Below the pieces are notes generated by a model that had not been told where the DNA came from, made no database searches, and worked only from the letters and a program-made list of their open reading frames with translations. Source: Candidatus Poribacteria bacterium (GTDB lineage: Bacteria > Poribacteria > DTPJ01 > WJIO01). Taken from it: a stretch of DNA of 5,866 nt. Of this stretch, positions 3,701 through 5,866 are shown in pieces (within the stretch, counting starts at the first letter, position 1; every line of letters begins with the position of its first letter). The translations under genes were made by a program, and so were the position numbers. Location: contig WJIO01000146.1 of the NCBI GenBank assembly GCA_014730235.1, forward strand, positions 1 to 5,866, read 5' to 3'.

Positions 3701-4111
3701 TTACATCAATTGAAAACCAAAGTGTTTAAAATCTTCATCAAAAGCAAATGCAATATTTAATCCTCTTGCCTGCATGGTAGCGAAACTGGCGCAATCTACC
3801 AGACTGTAATCTTTATCAGAATATTGACGAAATAATTCCTGGGCCTTATGAAAACCAAACTCGCCCTGGAAAATAATTATTAGATTTTCCTCCTCCTGTA
3901 ACGCCTGATCAAACAGGTTCGCAGCAAACCTACCCACTCGGGAAACCAGAAAGGCATATACTTCTGTAAGAACATAATCTGTAGTGACACAGAGCATTCC
4001 TTTTCTGTCAATCTCTTCCTGAATTTGCAAGGCTTCATTATGATATTGATCATCTTTATATATCAATGCAATAAAAGCACTGGTATCAATGAAATATTCA
4101 TTTTTTGCCAT
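3701..4111 (-). CDS. vapC: PIN-domain ribonuclease toxin, VapC type
   Basis: The 136-residue product has the usual size and layout of a VapC toxin, a Mg2+-dependent endoribonuclease that cleaves RNA (often tRNA or rRNA) when its antitoxin is lost. The acidic residues expected in a PIN active site are present: D9 in FIDTSAF, E50 in YVLTEVYAF, D106 in YSLVDCASF and D125 in AFAFDEDF. The gene overlaps the antitoxin gene upstream by 14 nt (4098-4111), and its ATG at 4109-4111 has GGAG 7 nt upstream, inside the antitoxin gene. This is typical of translational coupling in a toxin-antitoxin operon. No catalytic residue appears lost, so the toxin is probably functional. The target RNA is unknown. Confidence 0.9.
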   Translation of the reverse strand: MAKNEYFIDTSAFIALIYKDDQYHNEALQIQEEIDRKGMLCVTTDYVLTEVYAFLVSRVGRFAANLFDQALQEEENLIIIFQGEFGFHKAQELFRQYSDKDYSLVDCASFATMQARGLNIAFAFDEDFKHFGFQLM

Positions 4112-4424
4112 CAGATAGCTCCGCTAAATCTTCTTCTTCATTTGTCTGTGTCTCAGTTAGGTATCTATCATGATTTACTGAATAGTCGGGTTGACCACCA
4201 CCGGTCTTTACCATTCCATAGATTTTTGACAGGCCCTTTTTATTTTCATCTGGAACTATTTCTGCCCCGGACTGTCTTTTATCTACGATTTTTTTGGGAT
4301 AAAGGCTGATAATTTCCCCATCAAATTGAATTTCTACAAAATCACCTATTTCAAGCTGGGCAGATTCACATATAGAGGCAGGGAGAGTTAGTTGCCTGTT
4401 TGTTCTGAGTTTTACAATTGGCAT
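4098..4424 (-). CDS. AbrB/MazE-type (SpoVT-AbrB fold) antitoxin
   Basis: The 108-residue product is the first gene of the toxin-antitoxin pair. Residues ~1-45 show the swapped-hairpin AbrB/MazE DNA-binding pattern: a LRTNRQLTLPASI strand-turn, then LEIGDFVEIQFDGEIISLYP. The remaining ~60 residues are charged and low in hydrophobics (NEEEDLAELSDGKK at the end), as expected for a disordered tail that wraps and blocks a PIN toxin. The ATG at 4422-4424 has AAGGAGT (4433-4439) 8 nt upstream. In known systems the antitoxin also binds its own promoter, with the toxin as co-repressor; the consensus promoter at 4476-4504 would be the target, though I did not identify an operator. The N-terminal fold call is firm, but the exact antitoxin family is not assigned. 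Confidence 0.85.
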   Translation of the reverse strand: MPIVKLRTNRQLTLPASICESAQLEIGDFVEIQFDGEIISLYPKKIVDKRQSGAEIVPDENKKGLSKIYGMVKTGGGQPDYSVNHDRYLTETQTNEEEDLAELSDGKK

Positions 4425-4475
4425 CTCAGATCACTCCTTTCGTTTGCAATTTTAAGAAATTATGAATTTAATAAA

Positions 4476-4504
4476 ATTATAATGCCTCTGTATCCTGATG
4501 TCAA
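4476..4504 (-). promoter_or_regulatory. Consensus sigma-70-type promoter of the toxin-antitoxin operon
   Basis: Read on the - strand there is a perfect TTGACA (4499-4504), a 17-nt spacer and a perfect TATAAT (4476-4481). This predicts transcription starting near 4469 and a leader of about 45 nt before the antitoxin ATG at 4424, with an AAGGAGT ribosome site in it. It gives the toxin-antitoxin pair its own transcription, independent of the retroelement genes upstream. An exact match in both boxes is unusual and suggests a strong promoter kept in check by antitoxin autorepression (inference). Confidence 0.85.
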
Positions 4505-4557
4505 CAGGTTTATATATCCCCCTGTTTCAATGTATTGTTATAGAAATATCCCGGACC

Positions 4558-4726
4558 GACTTTCGTTGCCTACCAACCGGCCCAGGACGTTCTTTATCTT
4601 TGGCTGGACTTTATTGCCCAACACAGGAACGTCATCTGGACTTCTCGACGCGCTCTCTGTAAGACTTTCTGGCTTACAGACTCTGGCATCGAACATGAGA
4701 AGTATTGAGACGAACAACGAAAACCG
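4558..4726 (-). ncRNA. Putative DGR template/spacer RNA 3' region (structured)
   Basis: The region runs from the invariant end of the template repeat into non-coding sequence, read on the - strand. Three nested, non-crossing pairings can be seen. First, the TR end GGTTTTCGTTGTT (4713-4725) can pair with GGCAACGAAAGTC (4558-4570) over 13 contiguous positions, 9 Watson-Crick and 4 G-U, with an 8-bp perfect core. Inside it lie an 8-bp perfect stem, TCTGTAAG/CTTACAGA (4673-4680 with 4656-4663, 9-nt loop), and a 7-bp repeat, GACGTTC/GAACGTC (4627-4633 with 4586-4592, 34-nt loop). In studied DGRs the RNA downstream of TR is a folded spacer that binds the RT-Avd complex and primes cDNA synthesis. 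That this segment is such a spacer is inferred from position and fold. I did no energy calculation, and the toxin-antitoxin promoter begins just beyond it. Confidence 0.45.
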
Positions 4727-5001
4727 TTGTTGTTGTTCGTGTTCGTCGGATTGTTGTTATTGCGGTTCGCCGCGCTTATCAGGCGTTTCTTTGGCTCGTA
4801 TATGGTAAACTCGTGGTATTCTCCCGGCTGGTAAACCTTATCTATAAGCTCTTCCTGAAGCTGGAATATTTCCCGCTCCCGATGGAAGTTAAATTTGGAT
4901 ACTGAATACTGGAATCGTTTACCTTTCTGAGACTGATCAGCCGCCTTCCAAAGGTTTTCAAAGGAGCAGATTTGCGGGTAAAGACCTGTAAATGTTTTCA
5001 T
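4594..5001 (-). pseudogene. Truncated DGR reverse transcriptase, fused in frame to the template repeat
   Basis: The gene starts at ATG 4999-5001, overlapping the avd stop by 4 nt (ATGA), with AGGGG 9 nt upstream (5011-5015). Residues 1-78 match the start of DGR-type group-II-like reverse transcriptases: LYPQICSFENLWKAA, KGKR, a LQEEL helix, YQPGEYHEFTIYEPKKRL and ISAA. At residue 78 the usual continuation (PFRDR..., then the palm with the YxDD motif and the DGR-type QGxxxSP-like motif) is absent. The frame instead reads NRNNNNPTNTNNNN and GFRCSSQ, which is translated template repeat, then 35 unrelated residues to a stop at 4594-4596. Intact DGR RTs are several times longer, so no polymerase activity is possible from this product. 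The join lies in a GCGGCG stretch at ~4768-4773, suggesting a microhomology deletion. No RT motifs were found further on in any frame, so this is not a frameshift. Confidence 0.88.
4706..4770 (-). repeat. DGR template repeat (TR), 3' remnant
   Basis: This is the partner of the variable repeat at 5431-5495: 65 nt align without gaps, with 53 identical. Read on the - strand it is a run of AAC/AAT codons (10 in 16 codons), the adenine-rich design of DGR templates. It ends in a 21-nt block identical to VR (4706-4726), corresponding to the initiation-of-mutagenic-homing region. Of the 12 differences from VR, 11 fall at TR adenines and one is T to G (TR base 4759). Typical TRs are about 100-150 nt, so the 5' part is missing, cut off at the junction with the RT gene near 4770. 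Confidence 0.92.
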
Positions 5002-5345
5002 CTGGCATTTCCCCTTTGCTGCTTGATCCAGCCCCCGACTAAACTGCCTGCCTCGTTGATCTCACGGGATATGTATCCGTACCGTTTAAGGGATAACAAG
5101 TCCAGATCTCTACATAATCTCAGGAGATAGCGCATCTGTTCCAGCCTTATGTTGGCCTGACACAGCAGGTCAAGCTTCCTGCGTGTATAGCTGGCTTCTA
5201 TCAGCAATCCCAACACATCTAACCCCAGGTCAGTGATCCTGTCCCCCAGGGTAAATTTATGGGACCTGGGCAGTTTTGAAACCTGGGGCAACAGCCACTT
5301 GAGCACATCATACATTTTCGCTACAGCCTTCATTTCATCAGCCAA
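4998..5345 (-). CDS. avd: Avd, DGR accessory variability determinant (four-helix bundle)
   Basis: The product has about 115 residues. It fits the Avd / 23S-rRNA-intervening-sequence-protein fold: four amphipathic helices with the recognisable pieces YDVLKWLLPQVSKLPR, KFTLGDRI, LLIEASYTRRK, LLRLCRDLDLLS and a C-terminal GGWIKQQ. In characterised DGRs, Avd forms a basic pentameric barrel that binds the reverse transcriptase and the template RNA and is required for mutagenic homing. I prefer the TTG at 5343-5345 because GGAG (5352-5355) lies 6 nt upstream; the ATG at 5331-5333 is an alternative, and the frame is open to 5366. The stop overlaps the RT start as ATGA, so the two were translationally coupled. 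Avd itself looks intact, which contrasts with the broken RT. Confidence 0.9.
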   Translation of the reverse strand: MADEMKAVAKMYDVLKWLLPQVSKLPRSHKFTLGDRITDLGLDVLGLLIEASYTRRKLDLLCQANIRLEQMRYLLRLCRDLDLLSLKRYGYISREINEAGSLVGGWIKQQRGNAR

Positions 5346-5364
5346 ATTAAGCTCCAATATTTCC

Positions 5365-5391
5365 AAAAAAATCGCGCGGCTTCGCCGCGAT
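5365..5391 (-). terminator. Hairpin plus T tract after the DGR target gene
   Basis: On the - strand, CGCGGC-GAA-GCCGCG forms a 6-bp all-GC stem with a GAA loop (5375-5389). A T tract follows (5365-5371) after a 3-nt CGA. It lies 34 nt past the target stop (5424) and just before avd. The shape fits an intrinsic terminator. DGR targets also often carry a GC-rich hairpin just downstream of VR that marks the site for retrohoming, so it may serve as that element, or both. Confidence 0.65.
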
Positions 5392-5423
5392 GGGGTAAAG
5401 GAATAAAGGAAAAAGGGGTAACA

Positions 5424-5866
5424 TCAGTCCTGAGACGAACAACGAAAACCGAAGTCGTTGCGCGTGTGCGTCGGAGAGTTGGCCTTGCGGTCCGCGGCCC
5501 GAAGGAAGCCCGGAGGGTAGTACCAACCACCGCCCCGCAAGACGCGAGATGATCCGGAATCCGGACCCTCAGGGTTATTTAACGGCGAACTTGAATAATA
5601 GCTGCCGCTGTACCAGTCCGAGCACCACTCCCAGACGTTCCCTGCCATGTCATACAATCCGTATCCGTTTGGAGGGTAGCTGCCAACCGGCGATGTATAT
5701 TCATAACCATCATCATCATACCTGCCAGTATAATAATTTGCCCGGTATACGCCGCCCTCATCAGGGGCTTCATCACCCCAGGGGTAACGCTTGCCTACAA
5801 GACCACCCCGGGCGGCTTTTTCCCATTCTGCCTCGGTGGGAAGTCGCTTTCCCGCCCATTCAGCAT
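5424..5866 (-). CDS. DGR target protein: FGE-sulfatase/C-type-lectin-fold protein, C-terminal part (5' partial)
   Basis: The frame is open from the window edge at 5866 to a TGA at 5424-5426, giving the last 146 residues. Sequence pieces typical of the FGE-sulfatase (SUMF1) family are present in order: [29 protein letters not shown], a [20 protein letters not shown] block, DWYSGSYY, then RVLRGGGW and the terminal GFRCSSQ. True formylglycine-generating enzymes have a pair of active-site cysteines in the segment after RGG; here that segment ([14 protein letters not shown]) has none, so an enzyme role is unlikely. DGRs commonly use this C-type-lectin-like fold as a binding scaffold, with the variable residues displayed near the C-terminus, exactly where VR lies. 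It is probably a surface or secreted ligand-binding protein, but its N-terminus is outside the window, so localisation cannot be read. Confidence 0.9.
5431..5495 (-). repeat. DGR variable repeat (VR) in the target gene
   Basis: This is the segment that can be aligned to the surviving TR (4706-4770). Eight of ten template AAC/AAT codons are changed here, giving D, K, A, S, H, R, D and F in place of Asn, while the framework codons CGC, CCG, ACG and ACG and the end block are kept. The 21-nt invariant block is 5431-5451, ending 5 nt before the target stop. VR almost certainly extends 5' to about 5550, over the WYYPPGFL codons, but the matching part of the TR has been deleted, so that limit cannot be read directly. 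Confidence 0.92.

Follow-up and report, generated by a model that had tools for sequence, protein, structure and literature searches.

An internal deletion has probably made a diversity-generating retroelement of Candidatus Poribacteria non-autonomous

What is a diversity-generating retroelement (DGR) whose target gene, avd and template (TR) stand together without a catalytic reverse transcriptase (RT), and how did it come about? The question is raised by a window of 5,866 nucleotides, which comprises the entire contig C66 of a Candidatus Poribacteria genome (G000; 5.53 Mb in 451 contigs, 91.6% complete, 4.8% contamination) and carries the cassette on its minus strand. With a TR/VR adenine pair, avd and an FGE-type target with a VR hairpin, the locus is a genuine DGR by origin; on the criterion of a catalytic RT, it does not qualify as a functional DGR on its own. 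We think it likely that a formerly complete DGR was made non-autonomous here by an internal deletion and is frozen unless an RT is supplied in trans.

The target gene is present as its C-terminal 146 codons (5424 to 5866, minus strand, as for all features below); the window is a single MAG contig whose end falls inside this gene, so that the frame is open at 5866. The encoded domain has an FGE-sulfatase/C-type-lectin-like fold (Pfam PF03781, E 1.6e-45), which is frequent among DGR targets. The VR portion that matches the surviving TR occupies 5431 to 5495, and the full VR extends upstream of it to about 5550. A GC-rich inverted repeat, CGCGGC-GAA-GCCGCG, lies 3' of the VR (5372 to 5393) and is a candidate target-site hairpin (∼5377 to 5393) or cruciform. 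Its loop is GAA, not a GRNA tetraloop; a T-run comes next, and a terminator role is also conceivable. Loci L031, L032, L152 and L034 have hairpins at the same position, with different stem sequences. The intact avd frame follows (4998 to 5366; PF22296, bAvd, E 7.3e-18); its start is probably inside the frame, near 5330, and it overlaps the RT start and is 58 to 60% identical to avd of intact cassettes.

Residues 1 to 78 (4768 to 5001, by alignment to intact RTs) are all that remains of the DGR-clade RT; its catalytic body, including YxDD, is absent from the contig. The stub is 55% identical to the first 78 residues of the RT in the Poribacteria genome G021, and over residues 1 to 77 it is 38 to 57% identical to other intact DGR RTs, with those of Poribacteria at about 55 to 57%. 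It ends in ...YEPKKRLISAA at exactly the point where intact RTs go on with PYRDRVVHHAL, and the catalytic motifs A and YxDD both sit past residue 78 in intact RTs. The TR starts in frame at the very base where RT homology stops, and a GCG common to RT codon 78 and the TR (4768 to 4770) marks the deletion junction. TR/VR comparison identifies the remaining template as the 3' half of a TR (4706 to 4770): it measures 65 nt versus 109 to 120 nt in intact relatives and in a second cassette of the same genome, on contig C384. A 135-aa fusion ORF (4594 to 5001) joins the RT N terminus to the translated TR and Sp region. The original prediction had listed the surviving parts (target with VR, avd, ∼78 RT codons and 3' TR) and the losses at this locus; the PF03781 and PF22296 matches and the RT and TR/VR alignments bear out all of them, coordinates included.

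Template and target retain the mutational signature of a DGR. The TR (4706 to 4770) and VR (5431 to 5495) of C66 differ at 12 of 65 positions, and 11 of these mismatches fall at template adenines, which account for 23 of the 65 TR positions (binomial P 9e-5). There are zero changes in the reverse sense, and the two are identical at 41 of 42 non-A positions. In the C384 cassette, 20 of 23 mismatches are at A (P 5e-8), and intact cassettes have adenine/other mismatches of 17/0 (L031 of genome G059) and 16/1 (L032 of G021). Disagreement at non-adenine positions is 0 to 1% in intact cassettes, 2.4% in C66, 4.0% in C384 and 15.8% in the decayed cassette of genome G030; compared with intact cassettes, the difference is significant for G030 and not for G000 (P 0.16). 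Agreement at non-adenine positions can be read as a rough clock since the last rewriting, and with it one can test what becomes of hypermutation systems that have lost their RT. The agreement at 41 of 42 positions leads us to infer that the C66 deletion is fairly recent, and the 15 of 95 non-A positions that differ between TR and VR in G030 point to an older decay there.

Two intact cassettes, L031 and L032, have the order target with VR, avd, RT, TR. The L032 RT has its best match to the solved RT of the Bordetella DGR (8ub7; E 1.3e-63). Full-length DGR RTs are found in four genomes of one genus and in the more distant same-phylum G081, among ∼81 genomes scanned. L031 and L032 share with C66 the gene order, the FGE-type target, the VR hairpin and the RNA 3' of the TR, and differ in having a complete RT and a full-length TR. 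They thus show the ancestral arrangement that had been predicted, although they are not close: among close relatives we found no intact form of the C66 cassette itself, and the nearest is ∼57% identical. The predicted order is right but ordinary, not unusual: across 80 named DGR loci in a wide range of phyla, we resolved TR and VR in 64 and found the TR after the RT in 53 of these. Such TR-downstream cassettes are group 2 of Schillinger et al. 2012, who described no strict order (PMC3521204). Two individual templates deserve mention. Beside the intact RT of L029 (∼3977 to 4088; G031:C101), the 5' half of the TR is nearly without AAC codons and the 3' half retains them, which looks like the result of a mutated copy homing into the TR; in G133, an RT ORF with a Gln-rich tail (L036:3454-4578, minus strand) may have a TR in another frame overlapping its 3' end.

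Because intact Poribacteria cassettes are ordered target-avd-RT-TR, ∼0.95 kb is gone from C66. The two points that meet at the junction lie, as inferred by comparison, ∼950 nt apart in L032, and the estimated loss would comprise ∼275 RT codons with both catalytic motifs plus ∼55 nt of TR. The internal deletion as originally claimed thus agrees with RT homology that stops at codon 78 and a TR that continues in frame. A complete cassette (target/VR, hairpin, avd, RT, TR and structured RNA) would have undergone a short-microhomology deletion of ∼0.95 kb that fused RT codon 78 to a mid-TR position, and the product would be a non-autonomous cassette that keeps the VR-bearing target, avd, the 3' half of the TR and the structured RNA but lacks a catalytic RT. 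With the RT core and half of the template removed, the C66 cassette alone can no longer hypermutate its target, as had been proposed; the loss of the catalytic RT leaves the target frozen unless a DGR RT is supplied in trans. C66 thereby offers a DGR deletion whose junction is resolved to the base.

Could the cells carry a complete cassette, with the junction being a chimeric join made in assembly or binning? The MAG is fragmented, the contig ends inside the target, and the TRs of C66 and C384 are 91% identical in DNA. However, in intact relatives the longest word common to the TR and the RT around codon 78 is only 5 to 7 nt, which makes a k-mer misjoin unlikely, and RTs have been lost elsewhere with different junctions, including in a genome of three contigs. 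We consider an artefact very unlikely and infer that the cells do carry the deletion. Selection might also have favoured a compact form whose fusion of the RT N terminus with an Asn-rich translated TR serves a separate function, and the 135-aa fusion is indeed in frame; yet an in-frame join is expected one time in three by chance, we found no second locus with the same fusion, and the junctions of decayed relatives differ, so that we give this reading next to no credence. A compact design in which the TR overlaps the 5' end of the RT was rejected because no RT comes after it.

Other Poribacteria cassettes have decayed in different ways. In G030, avd runs directly into RT residues 281 to 352, followed by the TR. 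The three-contig genome, G034, has a target and a frameshifted avd, and its DGR RT is absent. G021 and G059 each have, besides the intact cassette, a second one in which avd is broken and the RT is absent, and in G080 the 3' RNA persists next to an FGE gene, with avd and RT absent. One phylum thus gives a series of cassettes from intact to vestigial, and RT losses across several of its genomes argue that RT loss recurs and is not an assembly peculiarity confined to a single contig.

The same genome holds a second RT-less cassette. On C384 (L016), a complete 396-aa target with VR is followed by a hairpin, an avd reduced to its first ∼20 codons and a full-length TR; the RT is absent. Its deletion junction is unlike that of C66, and the RT was therefore most simply removed twice in G000. 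The two loci resemble each other between the 3' end of the VR and avd and again from the TR to ∼170 nt beyond, and their target domains upstream have only 60% protein identity. A cassette duplicated along with a VR end and placed beside another target would fit this pattern, and such a case has been described in Thiohalocapsa (PMC10907252). Over the common 65 nt, each TR/VR pair has 1 (C66) or 2 (C384) non-A mismatches, versus 4 and 6 in the cross pairs; each VR was thus last written from its own template. Near the C384 cassette (L016 1414-8484), ORF reading reveals SSB-like, tyrosine-recombinase-like and other replication-type genes, possibly of an integrated element.

Directly 3' of the TR lies a structured RNA of ∼165 nt that is common to DGRs with the TR after the RT in several phyla. 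It has four hairpins and the motifs GCCAGA, GAAGAGUCCAGACCUGUUCC and UGGUAGG (window 4543 to 4716, minus strand; L016:3479-3651; L031:4373-4560; many named loci). A covariance model (R1) trained on 22 loci outside Poribacteria matches this Sp-like domain in C66 (4716 to 4543; 54.7 bits, E 1.7e-13), in C384 (61 bits) and in the intact Poribacteria cassettes. Our RNA counts are lower bounds, because 150 of 804 candidates were scored in G000, a scan that missed C384, and 35 per genome across the phylum. No Rfam 15 family matched the structured RNA at the gathering threshold in the window or in 13 other DGR-bearing loci, which gave two tRNAs only. In Bordetella phage, the spacer that follows the TR both recruits RT-Avd and serves to prime cDNA synthesis (PMC12875486); by analogy, the RNA found here would be its equivalent and a putative RT-Avd recruiter. 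The C66 and C384 RNAs are 94% identical by column. All nine substitutions in paired columns keep the pairs, with one pair changed on both sides, and random transitions kept all nine pairings in ∼1% of trials; because both sequences were consulted in drawing the structure by hand, and two sequences are few, this count gives no more than supporting evidence. Constraint appears to have acted on the template module during the divergence of the two copies, not necessarily after RT loss, and retention of the RNA in both cassettes means that it is not visibly decayed. In G044, a second, weaker copy of the RNA (L030:1140-1330, minus strand; 31.5 bits) lies ∼1.6 kb from an intact cassette, with no evident TR.

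These retained parts raise the question of an RT in trans. Searches of the 91.6%-complete G000 assembly with PF00078 and a DGR RT profile led to three places, C62, C357 and the N-terminal stub of C66, and found no DGR RT elsewhere. By length and context, neither C62, a group II intron (maturase) type RT, nor C357, an RT next to cas1/cas2, is DGR-type; these identities rest on ORF reading and gene context. The C357 gene (L004, 1521-5952) encodes a 1047-aa RT-containing protein with cas1- and cas2-like genes directly after it, an unusual RT-containing CRISPR adaptation module. An adenine-masked TR pattern found TR/VR pairs on C66 and C384 only; a match on C367 with three mismatches was judged to be chance because a reversed control likewise yields one match. 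The missing ∼8% of the genome presumably holds no RT either; given the completeness, the 451 contigs and the 4.8% contamination, an intact copy may be missing from the assembly or polymorphic in the population.

A DGR RT encoded at another locus of the genome, or by other members of the population, might draw on the truncated TR and structured RNA and so rewrite the VR in its 3' half, making the cassette non-autonomous yet working. The structured RNA, intact with its nine conserved pairings (one compensatory) in both RT-less G000 cassettes, the hairpin 3' of the VR, the open avd and the TR/VR agreement at non-A positions would all suit such use, and RT-less loci are diversified in trans in Thiohalocapsa (PMC10907252). 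We nevertheless regard it as unlikely: no DGR RT was found in G000, pairing conservation may predate RT loss rather than follow it, losing the 5' TR half means losing homology to the 5' part of the VR, and each VR fits its own TR better than that of the other cassette. That the RT-less cassettes of Poribacteria form a lasting class of non-autonomous, template-bearing elements, with a selected template RNA, an RT in trans and a half-length TR rewriting half a VR, seems quite improbable; if true, it would be the DGR counterpart of non-autonomous transposons.

The preferred reading, a complete DGR disabled by deletion, places C66 among degenerate RT-less loci: its parts are recognizable, key machinery is deleted, and an intact homologous cassette is known. 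Such cassettes are a known kind and, as a biological system, not new; the suggestion that decayed DGRs are rarely described was too strong. DGR RTs truncated by a transposon, nonsense or frameshift are on record (PMC3521204), as are degenerate loci with machinery missing or pseudogenized, some of them diversified in trans (PMC10907252), target genes that remain after core-component loss in Treponema denticola (PMC4891356), and DGR remnants in cyanobacteria (PMC7517822). Thiohalocapsa PB-PSB1 (PMC10907252) likewise has DGR loci duplicated within one genome, some without RT and/or TR or with pseudogenized ones, and structural variants with and without RT coexist. There, however, transposons and MITE-like arrays are linked to the losses, and every class still has an intact locus; C66 shows a simple deletion whose two sides overlap by 3 nt, and its assembly yielded no intact RT. 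In the cyanobacterial remnants, TR-VR homology also persists without an RT; unlike for C66, the available text of PMC7517822 mentions neither a fragment of RT or avd nor a readable junction. Bordetella phage BPP-1 (RT 8ub7; Avd 4dwl) shares the RT family of the intact relatives, avd, adenine mutagenesis between TR and VR, a hairpin after the VR and a structured RNA after the TR, and differs in having its TR upstream of the RT.

A phage origin was rejected: positions 4400 to 5866 had no match in phage records, and no relative of avd or of the RT N terminus was confirmed in viral contigs. Matches to plasmid records were confined to short stretches of the target domain. Adjoining the DGR remnant in the window (3701 to 4424, minus strand) are a PIN-domain gene and an AbrB/MazE-like partner, a probable toxin-antitoxin pair.
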